Shown here: positions 25,601-44,501 of the stretch, piece by piece
Layout of the letters: every line of letters starts with the position of its first letter
Numbering within the stretch: position 1 is the first letter of the stretch
NCBI GenBank assembly: GCA_017309275.1
Contig: JAFKLT010000058.1
Span: 1-62,195 of the forward strand
Direction of reading: 5' to 3'
From: Sphingomonadales bacterium
GTDB taxonomy: Bacteria; Pseudomonadota; Alphaproteobacteria; Sphingomonadales; Sphingomonadaceae
DNA: 62,195 nucleotides
The notes under the pieces: generated by a model
What the model was told of the DNA's origin: nothing
What the model saw: only the letters and a program-made list of their open reading frames with translations
The model's database searches: none
Translations under genes and position numbers: made by a program

Positions 25601-25676
<76 letters not shown>

Positions 25677-28055: not shown

Positions 28056-28468
28056 GCAGGATTGCGCGCGAATTGCGGCAGGCCCGCGGGGATGTCGACC
28101 CACGGCAGCGCGGAAGCTGTCCAGACGTGGATCGTCGGGGCGAACTGCCCCGGATCGTCGGCAGTCCCCGCTTTCACGATCGCGATGTTGGGCGATGCGG
28201 CGGACAGCGACCGGATCGGCGAGCCGCAGGTCGCGCAGAATTGCCGCAGCACCGGCTGGCCGCTTTCGGTGTCATGATCTTCCCAGGTCGTGACGGCGCC
28301 CGTCATCGCCATCGCGTCGTCACGCAGGACGACGTTCACCGAAAAGGCGCTGCCCGACTGGCGCCGGCAATTGCTGCAATGGCAGACTGCGACGACCATA
28401 GGCTTGCCGGTCAGGCGATACCGCACAGCACCGCAGTTGCACCCGCCCTCGATTTCGGTTTCCGGCAT
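28052..28468 (-). CDS. GFA-family (glutathione-dependent formaldehyde-activating enzyme-like) zinc protein
   Basis: A 138-residue GFA/CENP-V domain protein with all zinc cysteines: CNC (10, 12), CHCSNC (29, 31, 34) and CATC (78, 81). The family includes the glutathione-dependent formaldehyde-activating enzyme, but most members have other, mostly unknown roles. A GGGAGAAGAG ribosome site precedes the ATG. It is the first gene of a two-gene operon with the fused CoA-transferase, divergent from the aldehyde dehydrogenase operon across a perfect 13-bp dyad. Confidence 0.85.
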   Translation of the reverse strand: MPETEIEGGCNCGAVRYRLTGKPMVVAVCHCSNCRRQSGSAFSVNVVLRDDAMAMTGAVTTWEDHDTESGQPVLRQFCATCGSPIRSLSAASPNIAIVKAGTADDPGQFAPTIHVWTASALPWVDIPAGLPQFARNPA

Positions 28469-28506: not shown

Positions 28507-28519
28507 CTAACGTCGTTAG
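28507..28519. promoter_or_regulatory. operator-like dyad, cluster D motif copy 1
   Basis: CTAACGTCGTTAG is a perfect inverted repeat, CTAACG-T-CGTTAG, between the divergent GFA and aldehyde dehydrogenase genes. Close relatives occur at 33908-33920 and 40971-40983, and a weaker one at 41975-41987. The TetR-family gene at 39508 is the obvious candidate regulator. Confidence 0.62.
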
Positions 28520-28583
28520 TTTGTAAAGGCAGCAGCGAACAATCGAGCCGACAATGATCGGCAGGACAAGAGGGAAGAGGCGA

Positions 28584-30000: not shown

Positions 30001-31206
30001 ATGCAGCTCAGCCCCGCCGACGAAGCCTTCCGCGATGAGGTCCGCGCTTTTTTCGCGGCCGAACTGACGCCCGAACTGCGCCGCGCGGGCCGGCTGATGA
30101 CCAGCGTCTATGCCGACCATGAATCGCAGATGGCCTGGCAGGCAAAGCTTCACGCAAAGGGTTGGGCGGCGCCCGCCTGGCCGGTGGAATATGGCGGGTG
30201 CGACTGGAGCGTGGTCCGGCACCATATCTTTGCCAGCCAGCGCGTCCGTGCGGGCGCGCCGCCGGTGTCGCCGATGGGGATCAAGATGTGCGGCCCTGCG
30301 ATCATCGGTTTCGGCACCGACGAACAAAAGGCCCACTTCCTGCCGCGCATGCTGAACGGCGAGCATTTCTGGTGCCAGGGCTATTCGGAGCCTGGTGCGG
30401 GATCGGATCTGGCGGCGCTGCAGATGAAGGCCGTGCGCGACGGCGACGATCTGGTGTGCACCGGCACGAAGATATGGACCACGCATGCGAATGTCGCGAA
30501 CTGGGCCTTCTGCCTCGTCCGCACCGCGAAAGGCGGGCGCAAGCAGCAAGGGATCACCTTCCTGCTGATCGACATGACGTCGCCGGGGATCGAGGTGCGC
30601 CCGATCATCATGGCGTCGGGCGAGCATATTCAGAACCAGATATTCTTCGACAATGTCCGCGTGCCGGTCGCCAATGTGCTCGGCGAGATCGACAATGGCT
30701 GGACCGTCGCCAAATATTTGCTGGAGTTCGAGCGCGGCGGCAGCGCCTATGCGCCCGAGATCGAGGTGGCGCTCGATGATCTGGCAACGCAGGTCGCGGC
30801 GCAACCCACCGGGCCGGGCCGCGCGCTGCTCGACGCAAGGATTGCCGAGGCGCGCATTCGCTGCGACATATTGGCGCGGCTGGAAAGCGATATCCTGTCG
30901 CGCCTGTCGGCGGGTGCGCCGACGGGCACCGATGCCTCGATGATGAAGATTCTCGGCACCGAATTGCAGCAACGCATCACCGAGCTTGCTCTCGATGCCG
31001 CAGGGCCGCTGGCGCGGGCGTTTCAGCCCGGCGTCGCGATGCCCGGCGGTCCGATACCGGGGCATGCGCTGGACGATTATTGCAGCGGCGAGACGTGGCA
31101 GGCGATCGCGCCGCTGCATTATCTGAACGAGCGCGCGAGCAGCATCTATGCCGGGACGAACGAGATTCAGCGCAACATCCTGGCGAAGGCCGAACTCGGC
31201 CTCTAG
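30001..31206 (+). CDS. acyl-CoA dehydrogenase, large type
   Basis: A 401-residue flavoprotein of the acyl-CoA dehydrogenase family. FAD/substrate-binding motifs include CQGYSEPGAGSDLAAL and TGTKIWTTHAN, and the C-terminal YLNERASSIYAGTNEIQRNI is typical of the FadE-like enzymes found in steroid and terpenoid pathways, some of which work as heteromers. It would introduce a C2-C3 double bond into an acyl-CoA thioester. It follows the aldehyde dehydrogenase gene by four bases. It converges on a second, shorter acyl-CoA dehydrogenase gene, a plausible partner. Confidence 0.9.
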   Translation: MQLSPADEAFRDEVRAFFAAELTPELRRAGRLMTSVYADHESQMAWQAKLHAKGWAAPAWPVEYGGCDWSVVRHHIFASQRVRAGAPPVSPMGIKMCGPAIIGFGTDEQKAHFLPRMLNGEHFWCQGYSEPGAGSDLAALQMKAVRDGDDLVCTGTKIWTTHANVANWAFCLVRTAKGGRKQQGITFLLIDMTSPGIEVRPIIMASGEHIQNQIFFDNVRVPVANVLGEIDNGWTVAKYLLEFERGGSAYAPEIEVALDDLATQVAAQPTGPGRALLDARIAEARIRCDILARLESDILSRLSAGAPTGTDASMMKILGTELQQRITELALDAAGPLARAFQPGVAMPGGPIPGHALDDYCSGETWQAIAPLHYLNERASSIYAGTNEIQRNILAKAELGL

Positions 31207-31221
31207 CCACCGGTTTCGCGG

Positions 31222-32232
31222 TCAGGGCAGCGCCATGTAGCGTGCGAGATGCTCGTCGCGCGTGCCGAATTCGCTTTCGATCGCGGTCAGCCGCTTGAAC
31301 AGGGCCGATACCGGCAGTTCCTCCGTCATGCCCATGCCGCCGTGAAGCTGCACGGCGTTCTGGCCGACGAAGCGGCCCGCGTCGGCGATCGTGACTTTCG
31401 CGGCGCTGATCGCGCGGATGCGATCCCTGGTGTCCAGGTCCAGCGCGTCGGCGGCCAGCGCCGCGGCGGCGGCGGCTCGCCTGGCCTCGATATGCATGTC
31501 GACAAGGCGGTGCTGGACCGCCTGAAAGTCGGCGATACGCTGATCAAACTGTTCGCGCTGGACGCAATAGTCGCGCGTGTCGGTGACCAAGCGCGCCATG
31601 ATTGCGCCGGCCTCCGCCGTGATCGCCGCGGCGCCGATGTCTAGGATATCGGCAATATCGTCGGCGGCCACCGGAAGCCGCGCGTCATGTGCGACCGTGA
31701 CGTCGTCGAGCAGCAGATCGGCGGCGCGGCGTCCGTCGATCGTCGGATAGGCCCTCATGGCCAGCACCTCGCGCGGCAGCAGGAAGGCGGCGGCCCCTTC
31801 GCTGGTCATGGCGGTGACGATCGTCGCATCGGCTTCGGCCGCGCCGATCGCGAGCAGCTTGCCGCCCGAAAGACGCCATCCCGTCACGTCGGCTTCGGCG
31901 CGGGCGGGGTCGCGATCATCGATCCAGGCCAGGGCGAGCTTGGCTTCGCCCGCCGCAACGCGTGGCAGCCAATGCGCCGCCGCCGCGCCGCCGGCGCGGT
32001 CGAGCAACACGCCGGCAAGCAGCACGCACTCGAGATAGGGGAGGGCGACGGCGCGCGGCCCAAGCGCTTCGAGCACGGCAAAGCCCGCGCGCGGGGAGAG
32101 GCCGAGTCCGCCGTGAACTTCGGCGAAGGGCAGGCCGAGCACGCCGGCATCGGCAAGCGCCTGCCAGCCGTCCTCATGCGCCTTCAGCCGGTCGAACCGC
32201 GCGATCAGGGCATCTTTCAGTTCGCTGTCCAT
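31222..32232 (-). CDS. acyl-CoA dehydrogenase, short type
   Basis: A 336-residue acyl-CoA dehydrogenase-like chain, about 60 residues shorter than usual. Its N-terminal helical domain is compact (LKDALIARFDRLKAHEDGWQ onward) and the middle beta domain is degenerate, without the usual TEP-x-GSD motif. The C-terminal FAD/dimer motifs REQFDQRIADFQAVQH and VQLHGGMGMTEELP are well kept. Such chains often form alpha2-beta2 complexes with a full-length partner, as in the FadE26/FadE27 type. The ATG is one base from the stop of the upstream GMC oxidoreductase gene, so the two are co-translated. Confidence 0.85.
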   Translation of the reverse strand: MDSELKDALIARFDRLKAHEDGWQALADAGVLGLPFAEVHGGLGLSPRAGFAVLEALGPRAVALPYLECVLLAGVLLDRAGGAAAAHWLPRVAAGEAKLALAWIDDRDPARAEADVTGWRLSGGKLLAIGAAEADATIVTAMTSEGAAAFLLPREVLAMRAYPTIDGRRAADLLLDDVTVAHDARLPVAADDIADILDIGAAAITAEAGAIMARLVTDTRDYCVQREQFDQRIADFQAVQHRLVDMHIEARRAAAAAALAADALDLDTRDRIRAISAAKVTIADAGRFVGQNAVQLHGGMGMTEELPVSALFKRLTAIESEFGTRDEHLARYMALP

Positions 32233-32233
32233 C

Positions 32234-33850
32234 TCAGGCTGCCTTTGTCGTCGGCGCATCGCGCAGGATGATGTCGGCCGCGCGCCAGGCCATCGCCATC
32301 GTCGGGCCGTTGGTGTTACCCGACGGTATCACCGGCATCACCGACGTGTCGATGACGCGCAGCCCATCGACCCCGCGCACGCGGAGCGCCGGATCGACGA
32401 CAGACGCCTCGTCCTTTCCCATCCGGCAGCTTCCGACCGCATGATAGCCGCAGGTGCCGAAGCGGTCATAGGCATCGAGGATTTCTGCGTCGGTATCGAA
32501 CGCAGGCCCCGGCATCGTTTCCTGGGCGATCATTTCTGCAAGCGGTGCCTGCTTCGCATAGTCGCGCATCACCCGCACCGCGCCCACCATCGCTGCGCGA
32601 TCCTCGTCGGTTGCGCGGTAATTGGGTTTGAAGCTGGCCGATGCGTCGGGATCGCGCGTCGCGATATGGATGCTGCCGCGCGAGGTTGGGCGCAGGGGAT
32701 AGATGACGGCATTCATGCCTGGGTGCCTTTCGAGCTGCGTGCGCTGCGTCGCCATGTCGAAGCTGAAGGGCGCGATCAGCATCTGGGCGTCGGGCCGGTT
32801 GAGTCCCGGGCGCGTCTTGAACCAGCCGCCGATTTCATAGGCCGCGGCCGACATCGGCCCGTCACCGGTCAGATAATATTTGAGCGTTGCGAGCAGCAGG
32901 CGCCAGCCGCCGAACACGCGGTTCTGCGACAGGGCATCCTTCGTCAGCTTCCACTGCATGATAATGCCGCGATGTTCGATCAGCCCCTCGCCAACCTGAG
33001 GATTGTGATGGACGAGCGGGATGCCGAGCGCCGCAAGCCGGTCCTTGTCGCCGACGCCCGACCGCTCGAGAATCGCCGGGCTGGCCATCGCGCCGCCGCA
33101 GACGATGACCTCATGCGCGGCGTCGATCGTCTCGCGCGCGCCGCCGTGGACCACCTCCACCCCGATCGCCCGCGTGCCGTCGAACACTATGCGGTCGACG
33201 GTGCGGTCGGTCAGGATGGTGAGGTTGGGGCGCTTTTCGGCCGGACGCAAAAAGGCCTGCGCGGCGCTCTGACGTTTGCCCTTGAAGATGGTGCGTGGTG
33301 CATAGCCGATCGCAACCTGATCATCGGGGGCGTTGACGTCGGGCTTGTTCATCCAGCCCATCGCTTCGCCCGCTGCGACCTGTGCGTCCGAAATCGGCAG
33401 ACGCTGCGTCGGCATCGAAATCTTCATCGGTCCCGCATCGCCGCGCGTTTCGTCGGCGCCAAGCTCGTGGTTCTCGAAGGCGCGATAGGCGGCGCCGATA
33501 TGCGTCCAGCTCCAGTCATCGCTCGATTTCTCGGCGATCGCATCGAAATCGGCGGGCTGGCCGCGCACATACATCATGCCGTTGACCGATGACGATCCGC
33601 CCAGGACGCGCCCGCGGACCCAGGCTTCGGACTGGCCCGCGGTCGACTCTTCGGGCTCGCTCATATGGACCCACAGATGTTTCGGATCCTGCATCACCTT
33701 TGCCAAGCCTTTGGGCATGGAGATGAAGGGATGGCGGTCGCGCGGACCCGCTTCGATCAGCGCGACTCTGATCGCCGGATTTTCGGAAAGACGATAGGCG
33801 AGGACACAGCCCGCCGCCCCGGCACCACAGATGATATAGTCGAAGCGCAT
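32234..33850 (-). CDS. GMC-family FAD oxidoreductase (choline dehydrogenase-like)
   Basis: A 538-residue GMC flavoprotein. The ADP-binding Rossmann motif is GAGAAGCVLAYRL at the N-terminus, the second signature is GRVLGGSSSVNGMMYVRG, and the C-terminal block has HAVGSCRMG and PSGNTNGPTMAMAWRAAD with the active-site His and Asn. It oxidises an alcohol to an aldehyde or ketone. I chose the ATG at 33850 (MRFDYIICG), with GAGGG eight bases upstream; ATGs up to 33901 remain possible. It heads a minus-strand operon with the short acyl-CoA dehydrogenase and faces the Rieske operon. Confidence 0.9.
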   Translation of the reverse strand: MRFDYIICGAGAAGCVLAYRLSENPAIRVALIEAGPRDRHPFISMPKGLAKVMQDPKHLWVHMSEPEESTAGQSEAWVRGRVLGGSSSVNGMMYVRGQPADFDAIAEKSSDDWSWTHIGAAYRAFENHELGADETRGDAGPMKISMPTQRLPISDAQVAAGEAMGWMNKPDVNAPDDQVAIGYAPRTIFKGKRQSAAQAFLRPAEKRPNLTILTDRTVDRIVFDGTRAIGVEVVHGGARETIDAAHEVIVCGGAMASPAILERSGVGDKDRLAALGIPLVHHNPQVGEGLIEHRGIIMQWKLTKDALSQNRVFGGWRLLLATLKYYLTGDGPMSAAAYEIGGWFKTRPGLNRPDAQMLIAPFSFDMATQRTQLERHPGMNAVIYPLRPTSRGSIHIATRDPDASASFKPNYRATDEDRAAMVGAVRVMRDYAKQAPLAEMIAQETMPGPAFDTDAEILDAYDRFGTCGYHAVGSCRMGKDEASVVDPALRVRGVDGLRVIDTSVMPVIPSGNTNGPTMAMAWRAADIILRDAPTTKAA

Positions 33851-33907
33851 CCTCATTTCCCTCGATTTCGGCTGCTTTTGCAGCATTCTCATCCTCTCCA
33901 TAAAAAA

Positions 33908-33920
33908 CTATTGTCATTAG
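33908..33920. promoter_or_regulatory. operator-like dyad, cluster D motif copy 2
   Basis: CTATTGTCATTAG matches copy 1 (CTAACGTCGTTAG) at 10 of 13 positions and keeps five of six symmetric pairs. It overlaps the candidate -35 hexamer of the Rieske operon promoter and lies 58 bases from the GMC gene start, suitable for repressing both directions. Confidence 0.6.
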
Positions 33921-33939
33921 GTAAAGGGTGGAATAGTCT
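33911..33939 (+). promoter_or_regulatory. candidate promoter of the Rieske/CoA-ligase/P450 operon
   Basis: TTGTCA (33911-33916) and TAGTCT (33934-33939) are separated by 17 bases. The hydrolase gene has the same arrangement at its own dyad: TTGACG, 17 bases, CAGTCT (40974-41002). The -10 match is weak, so the support comes from the shared spacing and the overlap with the operator. It lies 30 bases upstream of the ATG, and AAGGAGAGG serves as ribosome site. Confidence 0.4.
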
Positions 33940-33969: not shown

Positions 33970-35148
33970 ATGAGTGAAGTTGCAGAAGTTTCACGCCCCG
34001 CGCGCAAGCTGACTACGCTTGCCGACCTGACGCCGAGCCAGATCGAGGCGATCCGCAAGATTCCGGCTGAAAAAGACGCGGTCGTCGTGCCGTTCGGCGC
34101 GACGCGTCCCAATGCGATTTTCACCGGGCAGGAACGCTTCGACCTCGAACAGGAAAAGATTTTTCGTCGCTATCCGGTGCCGGTCACCGTTTCCGCCTTG
34201 CTGGAACCGGGCAGCATCGTCGCCAACGACAGCTATGGCTTTCCGATGCTGGTCTCGCGTACTCGCGACGGCACGATCAAGGCGTTCGTCAACGCCTGCC
34301 AGCACAAGGGATCGAAGATCATCGAGGATTGCGCGGTCCACAAGCAGGGCCGTGTGACCTGTCCCTATCATGCCTGGACCTATGGCATCGACGGCAAGCT
34401 GATCGGCGTGTCGCGCAGCGAGGCGTTCGAGGATTTCGACAAGAGCAAGCGCGGCCTGGCCGAGCTCGAGGCGCGCGAATGGGGCGGCATCGTCTATGTC
34501 CAGCTCAATCGCGCCATCCCAGCTGACTGGTCGAACCTGTCCGAACAGGTCGGCGAAGATTTTACCGCGATCGGCATTCCGTCGGCGCATGTCTATGGCC
34601 GCAAGAGCTTTGACCTCAAGGCGAACTGGAAGGTCGTGCTCGAACCCTTTCTGGAGGGCTATCATGTCCAGCGGCTTCACGCCGCGTCGATCGGCGACCG
34701 CTTCCAGGACGCGCCGAATATCGTCGACATGTTCGGTCCGAACATCCGCCAGGTTTCGGGGCGGATCGGCTATGTTCCCGAAATGCTCGACGAGGATGCG
34801 TCGGCGAACGTCCACAAGCTGGTCACCCACGCCTATACGGCTTTTCCGAACTGCGTCGTGGTGACCAGCCAATATTATACCAGCGTCATGCTCCTCATGC
34901 CGCGCGGGCCGGATCGCACGACGGTCGAATATTTCATGCTGACGCCCGAAGTCGCATCGACGCCGAAGGCCGAGGAGGTGTTCGCGCGCTCCTATGAGCT
35001 GATCCTCAGCGTCTTTGGCGGCGAGGATTTCCGGGCGGCCGAGATCAGCCAGCAGGGACTGAACGCGGGTGTGCCCGAAGAAACCGTCTATTGCGGGCTC
35101 GAGACGAATATCGTGCGCTATTATGAAGCGATCGAAGCGCTTCTGTGA
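33970..35148 (+). CDS. Rieske non-heme iron oxygenase, large subunit
   Basis: A 392-residue aromatic-ring-hydroxylating-type oxygenase. The Rieske [2Fe-2S] ligands are Cys110/His112 and Cys131/His134 (CQH ... CPYH). The catalytic domain carries NWKVVLEPFLEGYHVQRLH, giving the mononuclear iron ligands His232 and His237. No small subunit, ferredoxin or reductase gene is adjacent, so it is either an alpha-only enzyme or borrows electron partners from elsewhere. It is first of five co-directional genes (CoA synthetase, P450, DUF35, thiolase-fold). It likely hydroxylates the pathway substrate; mono- or dioxygenation cannot be decided. Confidence 0.92.
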   Translation: MSEVAEVSRPARKLTTLADLTPSQIEAIRKIPAEKDAVVVPFGATRPNAIFTGQERFDLEQEKIFRRYPVPVTVSALLEPGSIVANDSYGFPMLVSRTRDGTIKAFVNACQHKGSKIIEDCAVHKQGRVTCPYHAWTYGIDGKLIGVSRSEAFEDFDKSKRGLAELEAREWGGIVYVQLNRAIPADWSNLSEQVGEDFTAIGIPSAHVYGRKSFDLKANWKVVLEPFLEGYHVQRLHAASIGDRFQDAPNIVDMFGPNIRQVSGRIGYVPEMLDEDASANVHKLVTHAYTAFPNCVVVTSQYYTSVMLLMPRGPDRTTVEYFMLTPEVASTPKAEEVFARSYELILSVFGGEDFRAAEISQQGLNAGVPEETVYCGLETNIVRYYEAIEALL

Positions 35149-35185
35149 TTATTGAACCGGCGGCAGACCGGATGGAGAGGGACTG

Positions 35186-36685
35186 ATGGCGCAGACTTTG
35201 TCCAGCGCATTGGCTTGGTGGGCGCGCATGCGGCCCGAGCAGCCCGCGGTGGTGCTGGGCGGCGACCGGCTGAGCTATGGCGAATACAAGGCATGGTCGG
35301 ACCGCGTTGCCGCGATGCTGGAGGCCGAAGGGCTGGAGCCGGGCGACCGCGTCGCAATCTGTTCGACCAACAGTATGGCCTATTGCGCGCTGCTGATGGG
35401 CATCATCCGCGCGGGCGGCATCGTCAACCCGGTCAACTTCCGATTCACGCCGCGCGAGATCAGGGAGCTGTGCGAGACCACCGAGCCGCGCTTTACCTTT
35501 GCCGCGCCGGAGTTCGAGGGGAATGTCGCCGCGGCCGGGCTGGTTCCGCGTCCGATGGCGCAGATCGAGGCCCTGCGCCAGGGTGCGCCCGCCTCGCCCG
35601 CGCATGATCCGCAGCCCGATGCGCCGGTCGTGATCATCGCGACGAGCGGGTCGACCGCGAAGCCGAAGGGCGTGGTGTTCACCAACCGATCGATGACCGC
35701 CTATGCCGCCTGCTGGTCGCTCGAAGAGACATCGTCGTCGGCCGGCGCGCGCATCATCAGCCTGGCGCCGCTCAACACCTCGGCGGGTTTCGTCCAGCTC
35801 ATCCACTATATCACGCAGGGCTGCACCATCTTCATGGAACCGGCCTTCGTTCCCGATGCGATCCTGCGATTGCTGCAGGACGAGAAGATCAATTGCTTTG
35901 GAGCCGTCCCGACCTTTTTCGAGGCGATCGCGCGTTGTCCGGGCTTCGCCGACGCCGACCTGTCGTCGATCCGCCTTGCGACCGCGGGGGGCGCCCGGGT
36001 CAGCCGGCAGCTGCTGGACGTCTATAAGGCTAAGGGCATCACGATCCGCCAGATCTATGGCCAGACCGAGGTCGGCGGCAATGTGACGATGATGCCCGAG
36101 CATCTTGCGATGGCCGAGCCCGAGAAATGTGGATGGGGCGGTATCTTCATGGAGGTCCGCGTCGTGCGGCCCGACGGCAGCGATTGCGATCCGGGCGAGG
36201 CAGGCGAGATCGTGATGCGCTCGCCGGGAATGATGCAGGGCTATTGGCGCAACCCGGAAGAGACGGCGAAGGCGATCCGCGACGGCTGGCTCTATTCGGG
36301 CGATATCGGAATGCTCGACGAGCGGGGGCTTTTGACCTTCGTCGACCGGATGAAGGACCTGATCATCTCGGGCGGCCTCAATATTTCGGCGGCCGAGGTC
36401 GAGCGCGTCGTGTGCGAATTCCCCGGCATCGTCGAGGCGCTGGCGATTGCTGCGCCCGACCCGAAATTCGGCGAGACGCCCTTCATCGTCTATCATGGCG
36501 CGGCCGAGATCGACGTTGCCGCGCTGATAACCCACTGCAACGCGAACCTCTCCAACTACAAGGTGCCGCGTTACGTGGCCTTTTCGGCCGACCCGCTGCC
36601 GCGGCTCGCCACCGGCAAATTGTCCAAACCCGCGGTGCGCGAGCTGTACGCCGGCGCGCACGAGACGATGGAGCGCGTGCGATGA
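35186..36685 (+). CDS. acyl-CoA synthetase (AMP-forming)
   Basis: A 499-residue ANL-family adenylating enzyme. The P-loop is TSGSTAKPKGV (near residue 154), followed by IYGQTEVGG, GWLYSGDIGM, VDRMKDLIISGG and the C-terminal catalytic lysine in RLATGKLSK. It activates a carboxylic acid to its CoA thioester using ATP. The length and motifs fit the medium/long-chain or aryl-acid ligases. It lies 37 bases after the Rieske gene, and the P450 gene starts ten bases after its stop. In context it should prime the acid for beta-oxidation-like cleavage by the enzymes that follow. Confidence 0.93.
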   Translation: MAQTLSSALAWWARMRPEQPAVVLGGDRLSYGEYKAWSDRVAAMLEAEGLEPGDRVAICSTNSMAYCALLMGIIRAGGIVNPVNFRFTPREIRELCETTEPRFTFAAPEFEGNVAAAGLVPRPMAQIEALRQGAPASPAHDPQPDAPVVIIATSGSTAKPKGVVFTNRSMTAYAACWSLEETSSSAGARIISLAPLNTSAGFVQLIHYITQGCTIFMEPAFVPDAILRLLQDEKINCFGAVPTFFEAIARCPGFADADLSSIRLATAGGARVSRQLLDVYKAKGITIRQIYGQTEVGGNVTMMPEHLAMAEPEKCGWGGIFMEVRVVRPDGSDCDPGEAGEIVMRSPGMMQGYWRNPEETAKAIRDGWLYSGDIGMLDERGLLTFVDRMKDLIISGGLNISAAEVERVVCEFPGIVEALAIAAPDPKFGETPFIVYHGAAEIDVAALITHCNANLSNYKVPRYVAFSADPLPRLATGKLSKPAVRELYAGAHETMERVR

Positions 36686-36695
36686 GGAGCAAGAC

Positions 36696-37916
36696 ATGAC
36701 CGCCCCGCAAATGGCCGCCGCGCCCGTACCGCCGCATATTCCGGCACACCTCGTCTTCGATTTCGACATCTATGCCGATCCGCGCATCGGCGAGGATGTG
36801 CAGGGCACCTATGCCGCGGCGCTTGAAAGCGCGCCCGACATCTTCTGGACCCGGCTTAACGGCGGGCACTGGATCGTCAAAAGCTTTGAAGCGATTAGCA
36901 AGGTCGTGCTCGACCCCGACCATTTCTCGGTGCGTGAGATGCAGATTCCGCGCGTCGAGAATCCGCCCTTCTTCATTCCCCTGAGCCTCGATCCGCCGGA
37001 AAATCTGCCGTACCGCAAGGCGATGATGCCTATGTTCGGGCCGACCGCGATCAAGGCGCTCGAACCGCGCATCCGCGAATGGGCGGTCGAACTGGTCGAC
37101 GCCGTCGCTGCGAAGGGCGCGTGCGATTTTCAGGCCGATCTGGCCAAGCTGTTTCCGGTCAGCGTCTTCATGGAGCTGATGGGAATGGACCTGTCGCGGC
37201 TCCGCGACTTTCGGGCGCTCGCCGAAGCCTTTTTCTCGGCGCAGAATGACGAGGTCGAAATGGGTCGCCTCAGCGCCGCGATCCTCGGCGAGATGAAAGC
37301 GCTGATCGAGGCAAAGAAGGCCGCGCCCGACGACAAGCTGATGTCGCATTTCATCCACGTCGACATCGACGGCCGGACGATGAGTGACGACGAGATCCTG
37401 GCGATGAGCTTTGTGCTCTTCCTCGGCGGGATGGACACGGTGACCAACGTCACCGGCTTCGCCTTTCAGCAGCTCGCGCAGATGCCGGAGGTGCAGGCGC
37501 GGCTCGCGGCAGACCCGTCGCTGATCCCCGCCTTCGCGGACGAGGCCGTGCGGCTTTATGGCGTGGTCAACACGCCGCGGCTGGTGGTGCAGGACCAGGT
37601 GATCGGCGACGCCCAGTTCCGCGAGGGCGAGATGGTGCTGAACATCCTTTGCCTCGGTAGCCGCGACCCTGCGAAGTTCGAAGCGCCGAACGCCTTCGAC
37701 CTCGATCGCAAGAAAACCGCGCACCTGACCTTTTCGTCCGGCCCGCATCTGTGCGTCGGCCATGTCCTGGGACGCGCGGAGTTGCGCATCCTGACCGAGG
37801 AGTGGGTGCGGCGTATCCCGTCGTTTCGCGCGCAACCGGGCGAGCGCCACGCATTCCGCATCGGCACGGTGATGGCGCTTGAGACGCTGCCGCTCGAATG
37901 GACAGTGGCGGCCTGA
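36696..37916 (+). CDS. cytochrome P450, P450cam (CYP101)-like
   Basis: A 406-residue class I bacterial P450. The N-terminal HLVFDFDIYADP and DIFWTRLNGGHWI closely resemble P450cam. The I-helix acid-alcohol pair is Asp247-Thr248 (GGMDTVTN), ExxR is Glu283-Arg286, and the heme thiolate is Cys353 in FSSGPHLCVGH. Residues that P450cam uses for camphor differ: Tyr96 corresponds to Pro91, Thr101 to Leu96, and Asp297 to Thr293, while Arg299 is kept as Arg295. So it is a CYP101-type fold with a different, probably non-camphor, hydrophobic substrate. No ferredoxin or ferredoxin reductase is encoded nearby. It is third in the operon. Confidence 0.93.
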   Translation: MTAPQMAAAPVPPHIPAHLVFDFDIYADPRIGEDVQGTYAAALESAPDIFWTRLNGGHWIVKSFEAISKVVLDPDHFSVREMQIPRVENPPFFIPLSLDPPENLPYRKAMMPMFGPTAIKALEPRIREWAVELVDAVAAKGACDFQADLAKLFPVSVFMELMGMDLSRLRDFRALAEAFFSAQNDEVEMGRLSAAILGEMKALIEAKKAAPDDKLMSHFIHVDIDGRTMSDDEILAMSFVLFLGGMDTVTNVTGFAFQQLAQMPEVQARLAADPSLIPAFADEAVRLYGVVNTPRLVVQDQVIGDAQFREGEMVLNILCLGSRDPAKFEAPNAFDLDRKKTAHLTFSSGPHLCVGHVLGRAELRILTEEWVRRIPSFRAQPGERHAFRIGTVMALETLPLEWTVAA

Positions 37917-37918
37917 TC

Positions 37919-38317
37919 ATGCACGTGAACGACGGCGCCGACGCGCCTTACTGGAACGGATTGGCCGAAGGGCGCCTGCTGCTTCCGCGATGCGGCGGCT
38001 GCGGCCGCTGGATGTGGCCGGCGATGAACCGCTGCGGTGCATGCGGCAGCGAGGATGTCGAATGGATCCAGCGCGAAATGCGCGCCACGATTTTTTCATG
38101 GACGCGGACCTGGCATCGCTTCGGCTATACCGAAAGCCTTGATCTTCCGTTCGTTTCCATCGTCGCGACCGTCGCAGATTGCGGCATTCGCCTGCTCGGC
38201 CGGCTCGACGACCCCGACCAGGTCGACCCTGTGATCGGGGAGGGCATTGCCGGTCGGATCGGGGCGACGCGCGTCGGGACACGCGACATTCCCACGATCA
38301 TCTGGAGCCGCGGCTGA
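37919..38317 (+). CDS. DUF35 OB-fold / zinc-ribbon acyl-CoA-associated protein
   Basis: A 132-residue DUF35 protein. Its N-terminal zinc ribbon is CGGCGRWMWPAMNRCGACG (two Cys-x2-Cys pairs), followed by the OB-fold with TIFSWTRTWH and LPFVSIVATV. DUF35 proteins pair with thiolase-fold partners: examples are ChsH2 with Ltp2 (steroid side-chain aldolase) and the small IpfE with IpfD in ibuprofen breakdown. It starts three bases after the P450 stop, and its TGA shares one base with the next ATG, so it is tightly coupled to the thiolase-like gene. It probably supplies acyl-CoA binding for that partner. Confidence 0.88.
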   Translation: MHVNDGADAPYWNGLAEGRLLLPRCGGCGRWMWPAMNRCGACGSEDVEWIQREMRATIFSWTRTWHRFGYTESLDLPFVSIVATVADCGIRLLGRLDDPDQVDPVIGEGIAGRIGATRVGTRDIPTIIWSRG

Positions 38318-39483
38318 TGCACCCCCTCTACGGAACCACCGCAGTCGCCGGCATCGGCATGCGGCAGTACAGGCGCGGCGCTTCGCCGCTGCCCGAACAG
38401 GGCGCGCTGGTCGAGGCGATCCTGACCGCGTGCGCCGACGCCGGCTTCGATCCCGCCGACGTCGACGGCTTTGTCTCCTATGGCGACGACAAGAATGAGC
38501 CCGTGCGGCTGATGCCGGCGCTTGGCACGCGCGAACTCAAATGGTCGAGCGTGGTGTGGGGCGGTGGCGGCGGCGGCATTGCCGGCGCCTTCGGTCTTGC
38601 CGCCGCGGCGATCGTGTCGGGGCAGGCAAGCGCCGTGATCGTCTTTCGCGCATTGGTCGAAGGGTCGAGCGGGCGTCTGTCGGCGGCGGTGATGGCGCAC
38701 CACCTGAACGACCATATGCTGGCCGCAGGTATCGTCGCCCCGGCGCAGGTGTGCGCGATCCGCGCCAACCGCATGTACGAGCATCACGGCGTGCCGCGAT
38801 CGGTCGCCGAGGAACTGGTCCGCGCGTCCTATTATCATGGCTCGCGCAACCCCGAGGCGATCGCTTATGGCACCGACATCGACCTCGACGAGATGCGCGA
38901 CTCACGCTGGATCGCGGAGCCTTTTCGCCTGTTCGACTGCAGCCGAGAGAATGACGGCGCCGCCGCCTTTCTGATGGTGTCGGCCGAACGGGCGCGCGAC
39001 CTGAAGAAAGCGCCAGCCTATCTGCTCGGCTGTGCGAACGGCGCTGAGCGGGGGTGGGGGGATCTTTTGGAGAATGACGACGAGGCGCTCTATCCGACCG
39101 CCGGATTTCGACCGATCGCGCGGCGGCTTTATGCCGACACCGGCCTGACCCCGTCCGACATCGACGTCATCCAGCTATACGAGAATTTCAGCGCGCAAGG
39201 CGTCGCGTCGCTGATCGACCATGGGTTCTGTACGTACGAGAATGTTGCCGAGGTCGTGCGCTTCGAAAATCTGATCGCGCCGACGGGCAAGCTACCGGTC
39301 AACACCGGCGGCGGCAATTTCGCGCAGGGTTTCATCCACGGAATCGGCACGGCCTATGAGGCGGTGAAGCAATTGCGCGGCGAGTCCGCCAATCCCGTTC
39401 CCGATGCGAAACTATGCCTGCTTGCCGGCGGTCCGGGCGCGCCGACGGTCAGTTCGGCGATCTTCGGAAACGAAATTCCCTGA
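38317..39483 (+). CDS. thiolase-fold protein without catalytic cysteine (Ltp2/SCP2-type, probable retro-aldolase)
   Basis: A 388-residue thiolase-superfamily protein. Where thiolases have the nucleophile (CASG or CATG after beta-3), it has a glycine run at residues 82-87 (VVWGGGGGG) and no cysteine, so thiolysis through an acyl-enzyme is unlikely. The second-half motif GGNFAQGFIHGIG keeps the HGxG histidine (His341), and Tyr288 in IQLYENF may correspond to the catalytic Tyr of Ltp2 aldolases. Ltp2-type enzymes with a DUF35 partner cleave 3-hydroxy-acyl-CoA by retro-aldol chemistry, releasing a ketone plus propionyl- or acetyl-CoA. I chose the ATG at 38317, coupled to DUF35. It is last in the operon. 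Confidence 0.87.
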   Translation: MHPLYGTTAVAGIGMRQYRRGASPLPEQGALVEAILTACADAGFDPADVDGFVSYGDDKNEPVRLMPALGTRELKWSSVVWGGGGGGIAGAFGLAAAAIVSGQASAVIVFRALVEGSSGRLSAAVMAHHLNDHMLAAGIVAPAQVCAIRANRMYEHHGVPRSVAEELVRASYYHGSRNPEAIAYGTDIDLDEMRDSRWIAEPFRLFDCSRENDGAAAFLMVSAERARDLKKAPAYLLGCANGAERGWGDLLENDDEALYPTAGFRPIARRLYADTGLTPSDIDVIQLYENFSAQGVASLIDHGFCTYENVAEVVRFENLIAPTGKLPVNTGGGNFAQGFIHGIGTAYEAVKQLRGESANPVPDAKLCLLAGGPGAPTVSSAIFGNEIP

Positions 39484-39507: not shown

Positions 39508-40152
39508 TCAGCTGTGGGCGGGGTTGAGCGACTTGCCCATCGTGCCCTGTGCCAGGCGCGCTCGTACCCCGGTCAGGAAGATGCGCAGCGATTCGACGAA
39601 AAGCTCTTCATCGTCAAAGGGGCTGTCCGCGATCGCCTTTGCCAGATTGGGATATTTGTCGGGGTCGACATGGGGCATCGGATCGACGCCCCGCGCGCGG
39701 GCCGCCGCCTCGAACAGCGCGGTGCCATAGGTCAGCCGCTCGATCGCCTCGATCACCACAAGCTGGATTTGGGTCGGGAAGGGTTCGTCGCGTGCCGCGC
39801 GGTCATAAGCGGCAAGCAGCATGTGCTTCGGGAAATAGCGCAGGATCAGCGGCGCCGCATTGGGATGCTTCAACAGCGCGCGGCGCGTCGAGACGCAGAT
39901 GGCGACGATCCGCTCCTCATAGGATTCGTCGCCACTGTCCATCAGCGTGATGCGCACGAGCATGATGCGCGCGACCTCCTGAAGCAGTTCCGACTTGTCC
40001 TTGAAGTGATGATAGAGCGAAGGCGGGCGCACGCCGAGCTTCTTGGCGACGAGGCCCAGGCTCAGTTCCTCGAGCCCATGTTCGTCGATTACCTCAAGCG
40101 CGGCTTCGGCGGCATTGCTGCGCGAGATCAGCGGTTTGGAAGGTCGTGCCAA
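39508..40152 (-). CDS. TetR-family transcriptional regulator
   Basis: A 214-residue TetR regulator. The N-terminal HTH domain is NAAEAALEVIDEHGLEELS followed by LVAKKLGVRPPSLYHHFKDK (about residues 10-60); the C-terminal half is helical and ligand-binding. Translation appears to start at TTG (40150-40152) with AGGGG eight bases upstream; no ATG fits the family start, and the rare start may keep the level low. It lies 76 bases downstream of the SDR gene on the same strand, so the two are probably co-transcribed from the promoter holding dyad copy 3. It is the best candidate repressor for the cluster D operators. Confidence 0.9.
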   Translation of the reverse strand: MARPSKPLISRSNAAEAALEVIDEHGLEELSLGLVAKKLGVRPPSLYHHFKDKSELLQEVARIMLVRITLMDSGDESYEERIVAICVSTRRALLKHPNAAPLILRYFPKHMLLAAYDRAARDEPFPTQIQLVVIEAIERLTYGTALFEAAARARGVDPMPHVDPDKYPNLAKAIADSPFDDEELFVESLRIFLTGVRARLAQGTMGKSLNPAHS

Positions 40153-40228: not shown

Positions 40229-40948
40229 TCAGCGCAGCATCAGCCCGCCATCGACCACCAGGCTTTGCCCGGTGATATACGAGGCCTCAGGCGAGGCGAG
40301 GAACAGCGCGGCGGCGGCGACTTCGCTCACGGTTCCGAAGCGCCGGAGCGGAATAGCGCGCAGCGTATTGCCCGCCTTGCGCTCGTCGGCGCGGACTTCG
40401 GAGGTCATCCGCGTCTCGATGAACCCCGGCGCAAGCAGGTTCACGCGCACGCCGTCGCGCGCCCACTGGTCGGCGACCGCGCGGGTGAACCCCAACAGCC
40501 CGGTCTTGCTCGCCGTATAGGCGGGCGCATAGCCGATCGCGATGAAGCTGGCGCACGACCCGACATTGACGATCGCGCCGCGGCGTTCCCGCAACACGGT
40601 ATGGAACAGATAGCAAAGCTCGACAGCGGCATTCAGGTTGACCTCGATTACCCGGCCATAGCCCTCCATCGAATATTCATCGGCGTGCGACTGCCCCGCA
40701 TTGTTGACGAGGATGTCGATCGGTCCGACGGCCTCGGCCAGTGCGGCGCGGTCCGCCGGTTGGTCGAGGCAGGCACGGATATAGGTAAAGCGCGAAAGAT
40801 CGTCGTCATACTCGCCGGCATGGGCGCGCGTCCCGCTTATGATGACATCGGCGCCGCTGTCGGCGAAGGCTGCCGCTATGCCGAGACCGATGCCTTGGGT
40901 GCCGCCCGTGACGAGCACGCGCTGGCCCTGAAAGTCGAACCTGATCAT
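40229..40948 (-). CDS. short-chain dehydrogenase/reductase (SDR)
   Basis: A 239-residue classical SDR: TGGTQGIG at residues 14-21, NNAG near residue 87, YTASK near residue 145 and VDGGLMLR at the C-terminus. The region after beta-2 is SGTRAH, without acidic residue, suggesting NADP(H). A GGGAGAG ribosome site precedes the ATG. It is the first gene upstream of the TetR gene and is divergent from the alpha/beta hydrolase gene, with dyad copy 3 between them. Role: a redox step on the hydroxyl or keto group of a cluster D intermediate. Confidence 0.9.
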   Translation of the reverse strand: MIRFDFQGQRVLVTGGTQGIGLGIAAAFADSGADVIISGTRAHAGEYDDDLSRFTYIRACLDQPADRAALAEAVGPIDILVNNAGQSHADEYSMEGYGRVIEVNLNAAVELCYLFHTVLRERRGAIVNVGSCASFIAIGYAPAYTASKTGLLGFTRAVADQWARDGVRVNLLAPGFIETRMTSEVRADERKAGNTLRAIPLRRFGTVSEVAAAALFLASPEASYITGQSLVVDGGLMLR

Positions 40949-40970: not shown

Positions 40971-40983
40971 CTATTGACGTTAG
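40971..40983. promoter_or_regulatory. operator-like dyad, cluster D motif copy 3
   Basis: CTATTGACGTTAG shares both outer halves (CTA, TTAG) with copies 1 and 2. It lies 23 bases upstream of the SDR start and 45 bases upstream of the hydrolase start. TTGACG inside it could serve as -35 of the hydrolase promoter, with CAGTCT 17 bases downstream. Being ahead of SDR-tetR, it offers autoregulation. Confidence 0.58.
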
Positions 40984-41027: not shown

Positions 41028-41909
41028 ATGGCGGATGGCTTGCAGCAGACCGTCTTTATCGCGCGTGACGGCGTGCGGCTGGTTGCGGATCGTGGTGGCA
41101 GCGCCGACGCACCTGCCGTGATTCTGCTCCATGGTGGCGGACAAACGCGCCATAGCTGGAGCCGCGCGGTCGAGCGGCTGCTGGCGGAGGGGTTTCAGGT
41201 CATCAACTATGATGCCCGCGGTCATGGCGAAAGCGACTGGTCGCCGGAGGGGGCCTATCAACTGACCGATCGCGCCGCCGATCTTGCGACGATCGTCGCG
41301 GATCTGGAGGTGCCTTACATCCTGGTCGGGGCGTCGCTGGGCGGCGCAACCGCGATCGTCGCGATCGATCGGGGGCTCCGGCCTGGCGGGTTGATACTCG
41401 TCGACATCGTTCCCGAACCCGACCCGCGCGGCGTCGATCGCATCGTATCCTTCATGCGCGGAAATCCCGACGGCTTTGCCACGGTCGAAGAGGCCGCCGC
41501 CGCAGTGGCGGCCTATAATCCCCAGCGCACGGCGCCACCCGACGGCAGCGGACTGATGAAGAACCTGCGCGAGAGGGAGGACGGCCGGCTCCGTTGGCAT
41601 TGGGACCCGCGAATCATCGCCGATGCTCCCACACATCATCACCATGTCGTTCAGCAGGCCGCGGCGGCGCTGACGCACTTGCCCGATCTTCCCGTTCTGC
41701 TCGTCCGCGGGCTCGCCAGCGACGTTGTGAGCGAAGCCGGAGTCGCCGCGTTCCGCAGAGGCCTGCCGCGCCTCGAACTGCTCGATGTCGTGGGGGCAGG
41801 GCATATGGTTGCGGGCGACCGAAACGACGCCTTCAACGATGGCGTCGTCGCCTTTGCTCGCCGCAGCTTGCGCGGCAATGTTGCGATAAATTCAGATCAA
41901 GCCATTTAA
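41028..41909 (+). CDS. alpha/beta hydrolase
   Basis: A 293-residue alpha/beta-hydrolase. The oxyanion HGGG is near residues 33-36, the DARGHGES motif follows beta-4, the nucleophile elbow is GASLGG (Ser near residue 104), and the histidine is in GAGHMVAGDRND near the C-terminus. These features suit esterases, lactonases, enol-lactone hydrolases and C-C hydrolases. GGAGAGG lies eight bases before the chosen ATG at 41028. It is controlled from the dyad copy 3 region, divergent from SDR-tetR. It may open a lactone or ester, possibly one made by earlier oxygenation. Confidence 0.88.
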   Translation: MADGLQQTVFIARDGVRLVADRGGSADAPAVILLHGGGQTRHSWSRAVERLLAEGFQVINYDARGHGESDWSPEGAYQLTDRAADLATIVADLEVPYILVGASLGGATAIVAIDRGLRPGGLILVDIVPEPDPRGVDRIVSFMRGNPDGFATVEEAAAAVAAYNPQRTAPPDGSGLMKNLREREDGRLRWHWDPRIIADAPTHHHHVVQQAAAALTHLPDLPVLLVRGLASDVVSEAGVAAFRRGLPRLELLDVVGAGHMVAGDRNDAFNDGVVAFARRSLRGNVAINSDQAI

Positions 41910-41928: not shown

Positions 41929-41962
41929 CCCTCCAAAAACCTTACGGCATTAATTTTCTCGA

Positions 41963-42038: not shown

Positions 42039-44501
42039 ATGGACCGCAGTGCTTCGTTTCGCGCTATCCGCCACGCCTGCCTGGCGTCGATCATCGTAGC
42101 CGCAGGGGCGGCCGTTCCGGCTTATGCCCAGGCGCCGAAGGCCGACAGCGCGCCGATCGCCGATCAATCCGCAGACGTCCCGACCGAGGGTGAGATCATC
42201 GTCACCGCTCGCCGCCGCGACGAGCGCCTGATCGATGCGCCGGTCGCGATCACCGCGCTGGGCGGTGCCACGCTCGACAATTATGCGGTCACCGAATTCA
42301 GCGACATGGCTTCGCTCGTTCCCACGATGGTGGCAGGCAAGGCGGCTTCGGGTTCCTCCGCCAGCATCTTCCTGCGTGGTGTCGGTTCGACCGCGCTCAG
42401 TGCCGGTTTCGACCAGTCGGTCTCCTTTGTCGTCGACGGCATGCCGATGAGCCGCGGGCGCGAGATCAGCCTCAGCCAGTATGACGTTCAGCGTGTCGAA
42501 GTGCTGAAGGGACCGCAGGCGCTGTTCTTCGGCAAGAACGCGACCGGCGGCTTGATCGCGGTCACGACGAACAGCCCGAAGGATGTCTTCGAGGCCGGGT
42601 TCAAGGCGGGCTATGGTTTCGAGGCGAAGGAGAAATATGGCGAGGGCTATATCTCGGGTCCGCTTGCCGACACGTTGCGCGCGCGTCTGGCGTTCCGGGT
42701 GTCTGACAGCGAGGGTGCCTTCACCAACACCGCGGCCGACACCTATATCGATCCGCTGGGAATGCAGCGTCATAGGAACAGCAAGTATCGCGGCTATGGC
42801 CGCACCTACAGCGGTCGCGCCACCATCGAATGGGATGCGGCGCCGAACCTCAGCTTTCAGGTGAAGACCGGCTACACCGACCAGAAGGATGGAGGCCCGA
42901 CCGACATTATCGAACGCATCTGCGGTGGCGGGCGGACGACTCCCTTCTCGCCCAATCCGTTCGGTGGGCCGGCGGGAATTCCGCCCAGCCCCAACGCCGA
43001 TTGCAAGATCGACGGCCGGTCGGACAGTTCGACGATCCCGGCGGCAGTGGCCGCGGCCAATTATCGCTACGCCGGTGACGGCAGCATGTATTCGCGGCTG
43101 AAATCGGGTTTCGGTATTCTGACGGCGACGCTGACCAGCGACGTGTTCGACGTGACCTCGATCACCTCCTATTACCGGTTCAGGCAGACCGACCTCAACA
43201 ATGTGTCGGGCGAAGCCTATCCTGCCACCTTCTCGCAGCTTGCCGATTATCGCCAGACGGCAGAGGAATTGCGCTTTCAGTCGAAGTGGGATGGCTCGGT
43301 CAACGTGCTGTTCGGGCTGTTCGCGTCGAGCAACAAGTTCATCTTCAACACCGACGCCTATATCTTCCCTGTGCCGATCAGCCCGGTGACCGACACCTAT
43401 GTCACCTTCAAGCGCGACAATGGCTTTAGCGGCAGCTCGATGTCGGCGTTCGGCGAAGTGACCGCGAACCTGACGGACTCGATCGAACTCGCGGGCGGCG
43501 CGCGCTGGAGCTATGAATCGCGCGACAGCTATCAGGCGTCGCTGCCGGCGCATCTGGGCTTTGCCGGCGCCTTTCCCGCAGGGTTGCGTCTCGACGATCG
43601 CTATCGCGAATCCGACGTCTCGCCGCAGGTCACGCTGCGCTATAAGCCGTCGCGCGATTTGACCTTCTATGCTGCCTATAAGGAAGGCTTCAAATCGGGC
43701 GGCTTCAACATCTCGCAGACCCTGACCCCCGCGGCAACGGTGGCGGCGGGCCAGTTCGGCGCCGAGCGTGCGCGCGGCGGCGAAGTGGGCGCGCGTGCGA
43801 TCCTGATGGGCGGTGCGTTGTCGCTCAACGCGACGGCCTATTATTACGATTATCTGGACCTGCAGGTTCAGAACTTCGATCCGGTGACGATCGGTCAGGT
43901 CGTCGCCAACGCCGGTACGCTGCGCGTCAAGGGGATCGAGGGGGATTTCAACTGGCGTTCGGGCGGCTTTTCGCTGCGCGGCGCAGCGGCCTATAACAAC
44001 GCGTCGTACAAGGATTATATCGGGCAATGCTATGGCGGCCAGACCATCGCCGCCGGCTGTAATCTGCTTGCCGGACCGACGGGGGCCTTCACCAGCCAGG
44101 ACTATGACGGCCGCACGCCGCCAAAGGCGCCGCGTTTCGCGGGGCGCATCGGCGCAAGCTATGAAATGCCGCTGACGGACTCGGGATGGACGATGCAATT
44201 GTCCAGCGACCTCAGCTATACGTCCAAATATAATTTCACCGACACGCTGCGTCCCGACGCCGTGCAGCCCAGCTATACGAAGATCGACGCCGCGCTGCGC
44301 GTTAACGGTCCCGACGATCGCTGGACGATCGGCCTGATCGGCCGCAACCTCACCAACAAGCTGGTGGTCACGGCGGCGAACGACATTCCCTTTGCCGGTG
44401 GTACGGGCACCGGGTCGGCGGGTCCGGGCGTACTCGCGGACATGTCGGCCTTTGTCGACAATCACCGCGAAATCTACCTCGAAGTAGGTTTCAAATTCTG
44501 A
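42039..44501 (+). CDS. TonB-dependent outer-membrane receptor
   Basis: An 820-residue receptor with a signal peptide ending VPAYAQA, a TonB-box-like EIIVTARRRDERL, plug motifs FLRGVGSTA and RVEVLKGPQALFFGKNATGG, and a barrel ending in EVGFKF. It has no STN domain, so it is a transporter rather than a FecA-type signaller. GAGAGG lies before the ATG. It closes cluster D and probably imports the substrate or a related hydrophobic molecule. It differs in length and loops from the cluster A receptor, so a different ligand is likely. Confidence 0.93.
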   Translation: MDRSASFRAIRHACLASIIVAAGAAVPAYAQAPKADSAPIADQSADVPTEGEIIVTARRRDERLIDAPVAITALGGATLDNYAVTEFSDMASLVPTMVAGKAASGSSASIFLRGVGSTALSAGFDQSVSFVVDGMPMSRGREISLSQYDVQRVEVLKGPQALFFGKNATGGLIAVTTNSPKDVFEAGFKAGYGFEAKEKYGEGYISGPLADTLRARLAFRVSDSEGAFTNTAADTYIDPLGMQRHRNSKYRGYGRTYSGRATIEWDAAPNLSFQVKTGYTDQKDGGPTDIIERICGGGRTTPFSPNPFGGPAGIPPSPNADCKIDGRSDSSTIPAAVAAANYRYAGDGSMYSRLKSGFGILTATLTSDVFDVTSITSYYRFRQTDLNNVSGEAYPATFSQLADYRQTAEELRFQSKWDGSVNVLFGLFASSNKFIFNTDAYIFPVPISPVTDTYVTFKRDNGFSGSSMSAFGEVTANLTDSIELAGGARWSYESRDSYQASLPAHLGFAGAFPAGLRLDDRYRESDVSPQVTLRYKPSRDLTFYAAYKEGFKSGGFNISQTLTPAATVAAGQFGAERARGGEVGARAILMGGALSLNATAYYYDYLDLQVQNFDPVTIGQVVANAGTLRVKGIEGDFNWRSGGFSLRGAAAYNNASYKDYIGQCYGGQTIAAGCNLLAGPTGAFTSQDYDGRTPPKAPRFAGRIGASYEMPLTDSGWTMQLSSDLSYTSKYNFTDTLRPDAVQPSYTKIDAALRVNGPDDRWTIGLIGRNLTNKLVVTAANDIPFAGGTGTGSAGPGVLADMSAFVDNHREIYLEVGFKF

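Follow-up and report, generated by a model that had tools for sequence, protein, structure and literature searches.

How aerobic bacteria pass the branch points that block beta-oxidation is known only in part. One question then is what to make of a locus in which genes for oxygenation, coenzyme A (CoA) activation and carbon-carbon cleavage stand side by side: do they serve one pathway, how are they controlled, and on what kind of compound would they act? The locus lies in a stretch of 62,195 nucleotides (hereafter the window; GenBank assembly GCA_017309275.1, contig JAFKLT010000058.1, positions 1 to 62,195, forward strand) from a Sphingomonadales bacterium. The window is one entire contig (C63) of a 5.1 Mb genome, whose nearest named relatives are Sphingopyxis. 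At its centre are the following genes:

33970..35148, plus strand: alpha-only Rieske oxygenase (PF00355, Rieske; PF00848, Ring_hydroxyl_A)
35186..36685, plus strand: AMP-forming acyl-CoA ligase (PF00501, AMP-binding; PF13193, AMP-binding_C)
36696..37916, plus strand: P450cam-like cytochrome P450 (PF00067, p450; best match in the Protein Data Bank, P450cam)
37919..38317, plus strand: stand-alone DUF35 protein (Cys4 zinc ribbon plus OB), putative partner of the aldolase (PF12172, zf-ChsH2)
38317..39483, plus strand: putative thiolase-fold aldolase with Y288-E-N290-F and F339 (PF22691, Thiolase_C_1)

The first-pass annotation had placed these five open reading frames (ORFs), spaced by 37, 10, 2 and -1 bases, exactly, and had read them as a five-gene module; all are on the plus strand. 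They are a real core, but the unit to which they belong comprises about 15 genes and extends over about 25.8-44.5 kb of the window. We put the probability at roughly one half that this unit is a single catabolic regulon, in which the P450, a GMC-family alcohol dehydrogenase and an aldehyde dehydrogenase (ALDH) would yield an acid, to be converted to its CoA ester, hydroxylated at the beta-carbon by the Rieske enzyme and cleaved by the DUF35-aldolase pair, the substrate being of terpenoid or steroid type. The regulon is a concrete and widespread candidate for passing such branch points. Both substrate and mechanism can be tested directly, since operator and aldolase type are defined and the hosts are named, type strains among them.

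Linkage and co-occurrence of the core genes

A scan of public genomes, from which the best 80 of 105 relatives were kept, gave a close set of 49 loci (L022-L070), in which the thiolase-fold protein is at least 66% identical to that of the window, and a distant set of the remaining 31. Up to 10 kb of DNA was fetched per side of each locus (some contigs are shorter) and searched with profiles built from the loci themselves; locus counts throughout refer to this fetched DNA. The close set, with hosts among the sphingomonads, Caulobacter, Brevundimonas, Pseudomonas, Cupriavidus, Solimonas, Zhongshania and others, contains a Rieske gene in 36 of the 49 loci, a P450 gene in 32, a CoA ligase gene in 36 and a DUF35 gene in all 49; the corresponding numbers for the 31 distant loci are 20, 21, 27 and 30. 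One locus of the close set, L023, is that of the cultured strain S. terrae NBRC 15098. Relatives of all five core genes occur in 21 of the 49 closest loci and, since the genes also show matching distributions over 80 genomes (below), their grouping is not a product of chance. The first-pass picture of a single tight module needs correction. Among the 21 full loci the distances correlate most strongly for CoA ligase and P450 (r 0.93) and for DUF35 and thiolase (0.87), and least for Rieske and DUF35 (0.50); ligase-P450 and DUF35-thiolase form two closely co-diverging sub-blocks, which in some genomes stand apart (below). Several mycobacterial loci contain the same five kinds of gene in the order P450, Rieske, DUF35, thiolase, ligase.

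The distributions were compared over 80 Sphingopyxis genomes, the window's own included, at identities of at least 71% for the thiolase-fold protein, 72% for the Rieske enzyme and 85% for the P450. The thiolase-fold gene is present in 17 of the 80, the Rieske gene in the identical 17 and the P450 gene in 16 of those; G049, a genome 77% complete, has no P450 match, G012 has a P450 paralogue at 40% only, and G079 carries an additional distant copy of each of the three genes. Within the 16 genomes the genes are contiguous in nine, the Rieske-P450 pair lies 24-53 kb from the thiolase-fold gene in six, and in G030 it is on a separate contig. Two genomes, G036 and G043, contain a block of GMC, Rieske, ligase, P450, hydrolase and TonB genes at 70-94% identity without the DUF35-thiolase pair, which in G036 adjoins a second set of Rieske, ligase, P450 and GMC genes. 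The regions concerned (L105-L107 in G036 and L108-L111 in G043, 60 and 80 kb) contain more than one Rieske, CoA ligase, P450 and GMC gene; the G036 region additionally encodes a molybdopterin oxidoreductase and an ecdysteroid-kinase-like protein. In a 149-genome sample of the family, the thiolase-fold protein and the P450 occur in the same two genomes, the window's own and G179, where they are adjacent. Within the window's own genome, a P450 gene lies within 5 kb of four of eight thiolase-like genes (0.17 expected; three of seven without the window) and a Rieske gene within 5 kb of two of eight (0.16 expected; one of seven without the window, p 0.13).

A shared palindrome, probably an operator

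Three promoter regions of the window carry the 13-bp palindrome CTAWYGNCRWTAG. An inverted-repeat finder returned nothing in these promoters, and the element was traced from 8-mers common to the promoter regions. In the form of the near-palindrome CTAWYGNCRTTAG it occurs at three places in the window (28507, 33908 and 40971), all intergenic, with 4 strand-matches against 0.03 expected from shuffles. The sites, including a weaker fourth one, are as follows:

28507..28519, no strand assigned: operator site 1, CTAACGTCGTTAG, between the GFA-domain gene (minus) and the ALDH gene (plus); an equivalent precedes ALDH in L022, L023, L025 and L026
33908..33920, no strand assigned: operator site 2, CTATTGTCATTAG, within a 28-bp block at 33899-33926
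40971..40983, no strand assigned: operator site 3, CTATTGACGTTAG, between the SDR gene (minus) and the hydrolase gene (plus)
41941..41953, no strand assigned: weaker operator-like site, CTTACGGCATTAA, with 2 mismatches, upstream of the TonB receptor gene

The 28-bp block around site 2 is identical in six of six aligned Sphingopyxis sequences. A pattern with two mismatches is not rare in the window (19 matches against 12 expected), and the weaker TonB site therefore rests on its recurrence in relatives, a similar weak site being found in L022-L024, L026, L107, L108 and L112.

For scans of the related loci the pattern was widened at one position, from RTTAG to RWTAG, to a self-complementary form, which gave 57 sites in 32 of the 49 close loci, where 0.2 were expected and five first-order Markov simulations yielded 0, 0, 0, 1 and 0. 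Measured against the starts of cluster genes (relatives of the 16 window genes that served as queries), 56 of the 57 fall in the interval from -40 to 250 bp upstream, and no site lies within a matched cluster gene; the single site without such an assignment is in L052. About five of the 57 are repeats, four pairs of loci (L037/L069, L041/L046, L042/L051 and L053/L054) sharing at least 3 kb at 95%. The distant loci have two sites, in two of 31. When a site between divergent genes is counted for both, the element precedes the Rieske gene in 25 loci, GMC in 12, ligase and DUF35 in seven each, TetR in six, TonB in five, ALDH in four, and P450 and hydrolase in three each. In L057, L062 and L066 the DUF35-thiolase pair stands apart from the Rieske-ligase-P450 group, and both units carry the site.

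The shared palindrome is the best evidence that the cluster genes answer to one signal. Co-occurrence across genomes and the shared promoter element, neither of which depends on adjacency, support the one pathway that had at first been proposed from gene order and spacing. The regulator is probably the TetR-family protein of the cluster, for which CTAWYGNCRWTAG would be the operator; its gene is co-directional with, and downstream of, the SDR gene, whose promoter carries site 3.

The active site of the thiolase-fold protein

The first-pass annotation had called the last core gene product a thiolase-fold aldolase, and had seen the nearest parallels to the module in the logic of ibuprofen degradation and of steroid side-chain removal. 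The parallels hold in that the predicted model (predicted local distance difference test, pLDDT, 82.5) has as its best Foldseek match the steroid aldolase Ltp2 (6ok1; template-modelling score 0.87, 34% identity), and in that the true IpfD, whose accession is given in PMC11347016, is a recognisable relative (32.6% over 224 residues). Sal-Shy also stands near the top of the Foldseek list, and structures of PhlC match too. According to PMC12329534, the catalytic residues of Ltp2 are Tyr294, in a YDHF motif, and Tyr344. In the window protein the base Tyr of the YDHF/YDCY motif is kept as Y288, but the His of Ltp2 is replaced by N290 and its acid Tyr344 by F339. The motif YENF and Phe339 are found in 50 of 50 close sequences, and Y288, N290 and F339 also in 31 of 31 distant ones. 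The stretch aligned with the thiolase nucleophile region, residues 76-99, contains no Cys.

Since the second catalytic Tyr of Ltp2 is missing, the protein is not simply another Ltp2, even though its fold is closest to that enzyme; as judged from alignment, its active site is unlike those of Ltp2, Sal and IpfD. The true IpfD has YDAF and Tyr, and four proteins of the nearest clade have YENF or YDSF and Tyr. In a tree of 94 sequences, the 80 of window type, the window's own included, form one clade (support 0.94), which the four nearest-clade proteins (from L103, L104, L118 and L121) join next (1.0).

The DUF35 partner is a stand-alone protein of 132 residues, not joined to a hydratase. Its zinc cysteines 25, 28, 39 and 42 are conserved in 22 of 22 aligned sequences, and its OB_ChsH2_C match falls under the Pfam cut-off. 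A mycobacterial DUF35 protein (L099:9234-10001) is extended at its N terminus by about 120 residues, a stretch that to us reads like an NTF2/SnoaL domain; Pfam matches in this protein cover the DUF35 parts only.

The two oxygenases

The Rieske enzyme had been described as having no small subunit, and a Pfam scan of 19 window proteins found none. All its metal ligands are present: C110, H112, C131 and H134 of the CxH-CxxH cluster motif, together with the iron-site residues H232, H237 and D353, the last of which we take to be an iron ligand, are invariant in 32 aligned sequences. Where many such enzymes have Asp it has Glu229, at the position that presumably bridges the two iron sites. The AlphaFold model (mean pLDDT 91.2) has the carnitine monooxygenase CntA as its best Foldseek match, at about 20% identity.

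The label P450cam-like proved right in that P450cam is the best match among solved structures. For assignment to CYP101 a protein should share 40% identity or more with one of its members; against P450cam, the one member compared, the window protein lies below this value, with 137 of 397 aligned residues identical (34.5%). The alignment shows the Cys loop and the Asp-Thr pair to be kept, with a Phe near what we take to be the position of Tyr96 of P450cam. The best 60 structure matches are P450cam, other CYP101, CYP143 and P450cin types, with no sterol P450 among them.

Relation to characterised systems

Each part of the cluster is of a known family; what appears to be new is their combination, the regulon and the active site of the aldolase. 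The first-pass annotation knew of no cluster with this exact content; likewise, the accessible portion of the open-access full-text literature, a corpus that leaves subscription papers mostly outside, yielded neither a description of the cluster nor a characterised cluster of matching content. The Ltp2-ChsH2 aldolase resembles the window pair in its thiolase fold, its DUF35 partner and a base Tyr in a YxxF motif. The window protein differs in having Asn for His and, throughout the clade, an invariant Phe for Tyr344, and in that its DUF35 is not fused to a MaoC hydratase; the pair is, moreover, probably co-regulated with a Rieske oxygenase. The bile-acid aldolase Sal-Shy (9myr) likewise shares fold, DUF35 partner and base Tyr, but according to PMC12329534 its motif is YDCY, with a catalytic Cys, and Gln takes the place of Tyr344.

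The ipf operon for ibuprofen degradation on pIBU218 also groups a Rieske oxygenase, a CoA ligase, a thiolase-fold protein and DUF35, and follows a logic of CoA-ester oxygenation and retro-aldol cleavage; in PMC9195938 this consists of CoA ligation, dioxygenation and retro-aldol release of propionyl-CoA. Its Rieske enzyme differs in being of alpha plus beta type (IpfAB, encoded next to IpfD, IpfE and IpfF) and of another subfamily (IpfA matches at 29% over 201 residues), IpfD in its YDAF/Tyr signature, and the operon in that no P450, GMC, ALDH or acyl-CoA dehydrogenase (ACAD) is annotated in the 16 kb fetched. The same plasmid carries, outside the ipf operon, a second DUF35-thiolase pair of YDHF/Tyr type (L102:8588-10152, WP_208634557.1), which adjoins a CoA transferase and an enoyl-CoA hydratase and is separate from ipfDE.

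The nearest clade to the window aldolases (join support 1.0) belongs to six compact modules, L103, L104 and L118-L121, from Burkholderia, Delftia, Variovorax and Cupriavidus, located on plasmids or megaplasmids and comprising Rieske, CoA transferase, thiolase-fold and DUF35 genes. Of these modules four are annotated, L119 and L120 having been checked by tblastn with few seeds, and PLSDB annotation is incomplete. All six have a Rieske and a CoA transferase gene beside the aldolase; unlike the window, they have a larger Rieske enzyme (about 440 residues) with an adjoining reductase in five of six, no P450 in the four annotated stretches, and Tyr at the F339 position in the four proteins compared. 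ACADs are annotated in L104 only, beyond IS1071, and a crotonase was found in L119 only.

A proposed pathway and its alternatives

How might the parts operate together? The TetR repressor would bind CTAWYGNCRWTAG and control the regulon, and the TonB receptor would import a substrate that is most likely branched or cyclic and hydrocarbon-like, of terpenoid or steroid type. The P450 would hydroxylate it with a ferredoxin and a reductase encoded elsewhere in the genome, the GMC dehydrogenase and ALDH would take the alcohol to the acid, and the CoA ligase the acid to its CoA ester. The alpha-only Rieske enzyme could then hydroxylate the beta-carbon at a branch that bars the way to ordinary beta-oxidation, and the DUF35-thiolase-fold aldolase would split the bond between C-alpha and C-beta to give a ketone and acetyl- or propionyl-CoA. 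That the beta-hydroxyl comes from the Rieske enzyme is the view we favour, at about even odds. More tentatively, and with the odds somewhat against it, we suggest that this enzyme attacks the CoA thioester directly at a blocked tertiary beta-carbon and that a third catalytic type of DUF35-thiolase-fold aldolase, with Tyr/Asn and Phe in place of the acid Tyr, cleaves the product. If true, this would be a widespread, undescribed oxygenative bypass of the branch that stops beta-oxidation, serving to degrade terpenoid- or steroid-type compounds and distributed from sphingomonads to mycobacteria. A precedent for the problem is abscisic acid, from which Rhodococcus is reported in PMC9599779 to remove a C2 unit at a branch of this kind by a mechanism left open there; the same paper cites the shortening of beta-methylcinnamate to acetophenone. 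The chemistry of the abscisic acid and geraniol leads fits, and the accessible parts of that literature gave no gene link.

The same regulon and aldolase could, in principle, obtain the beta-hydroxyl from ACAD1 and ACAD2 with a hydratase encoded elsewhere, the Rieske enzyme acting on a ring or a remote methyl group. For this reading, operator sites 1 and 2 stand upstream of ACAD1 and ACAD2; against it, the window cluster has no recognisable hydratase gene. The combination of a Rieske enzyme, CoA activation and a DUF35-thiolase pair recurs with other Rieske types in six of six sister loci and the ipf operon, and three of the four annotated sister loci have a Rieske gene without an annotated ACAD or hydratase in the fetched stretch. 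Counts limited to loci with enough DNA suggest that Rieske and hydratase genes replace one another: within 10 kb in the close set (41 loci) 21 have Rieske only, seven hydratase only, 12 both and one neither (p 0.016), and within 5 kb in the distant set (24 loci) the numbers are 12, eight, none and four (p 0.0013), all such p-values being optimistic because the loci are related. Among loci with the YDHF motif, the aldolase gene has a MaoC neighbour in L123 and L125 and a crotonase nearby in L102, L125, L128 and L129, L126 has both a Rieske and a crotonase gene, and L122 and L127 have neither; in L124 (YDAF) a MaoC gene is 5 kb off. We consider the hydratase route less likely.

Several findings weigh against the oxygenative reading or parts of it. 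The ACADs of the cluster would equally permit the hydratase route, and the exclusivity of Rieske and hydratase genes is not seen within 5 kb in the close set (42 loci, p 0.51) or within 10 kb in the distant set (21 loci, p 0.15). No Rieske gene was found in 13 of the 49 close loci (some stretches being short), nine of which have a crotonase gene, as do 22 of the 49 altogether. The window cluster has no recognisable gene for a reductase or ferredoxin; elsewhere in the genome there are seven ferredoxin relatives (30-42%) and two ferredoxin reductases at 65-66%. The replacement of the acid Tyr344 of Ltp2 by Phe in all members leaves proton donation without an explanation. Finally, as regards the TetR protein, loci that have a relative of its gene carry the palindrome in 23 of 30 cases, and loci that lack one in nine of 19 (p 0.063).

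The Ltp2 fold and the base Tyr would also suit a sterol or bile-acid cluster that removes the C17 side chain in the manner of Ltp2, and PMC8399759 reports that the way in which bile-acid-degrading Sphingomonadaceae remove the side chain has yet to be explained. Yet the YDHF/Tyr signature of Ltp2 is not kept, the P450 matches are of other than sterol type, four MaoC seeds found no MaoC-like ORF among the ORFs of the 80 loci, and no HsaD match above cut-off occurs in the genome (best 190.6 of 400 bits; one marker, not proof of absence). The available portions of the bile-acid side-chain and progesterone literature describe no such cluster, and we regard this specialised steroid function as quite unlikely. 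Least likely of all the readings weighed here is that the thiolase-fold protein is an acyltransferase or decarboxylase of the DUF35/thiolase group, akin to PhlABC, rather than an aldolase: the two altered Ltp2 residues and the matches to PhlC point in this direction, while the lack of a Cys in the nucleophile region, the catabolic context and Ltp2 as the nearest fold argue against it.

The wider cluster and its surroundings

Beyond the core, the cluster comprises the following genes:

25848..28103, minus strand: two-domain type III CoA transferase (CaiB/BaiF; PF02515 in two stretches), with relatives 56-57% identical in G036/G043
28052..28468, minus strand: GFA-domain protein, in tandem with the CoA transferase, start set at MPETE, 138 residues (PF04828)
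28554..29996, plus strand: ALDH (PF00171)
30001..31206, plus strand: ACAD1, start set at MQLSP, 401 residues (PF02771/02770/00441)
31222..32259, minus strand: ACAD2, small-subunit type (PF00441, PF02771; pimD_small TIGR03203 match below cut-off)
32234..33901, minus strand: GMC-family alcohol dehydrogenase (PF00732, PF05199)
39508..40152, minus strand: TetR-family regulator, probable operator binder (PF00440, PF02909)
40229..40948, minus strand: SDR oxidoreductase, upstream of and co-directional with TetR (PF13561)
41028..41909, plus strand: alpha/beta hydrolase (PF12697)
42039..44501, plus strand: TonB-dependent receptor (PF00593, PF07715)

The left end of the cluster adjoins a tRNA-Ala gene (25601-25676), and within the window no further match was found to a degenerate pattern of the 3' end of this tRNA gene. 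In an empty-site test around the gene to the right of the cluster, no selected window protein matched at 55% or above, and we therefore make no claim of an island. Beside the cluster, at 44704-45786, lies a gene for a protein without a Pfam match, which we take to be LuxR-like; relatives of it are present in 14 of 40 genomes searched, some of them without the cluster, and in G060 the relative lies about 540 kb from the cluster.

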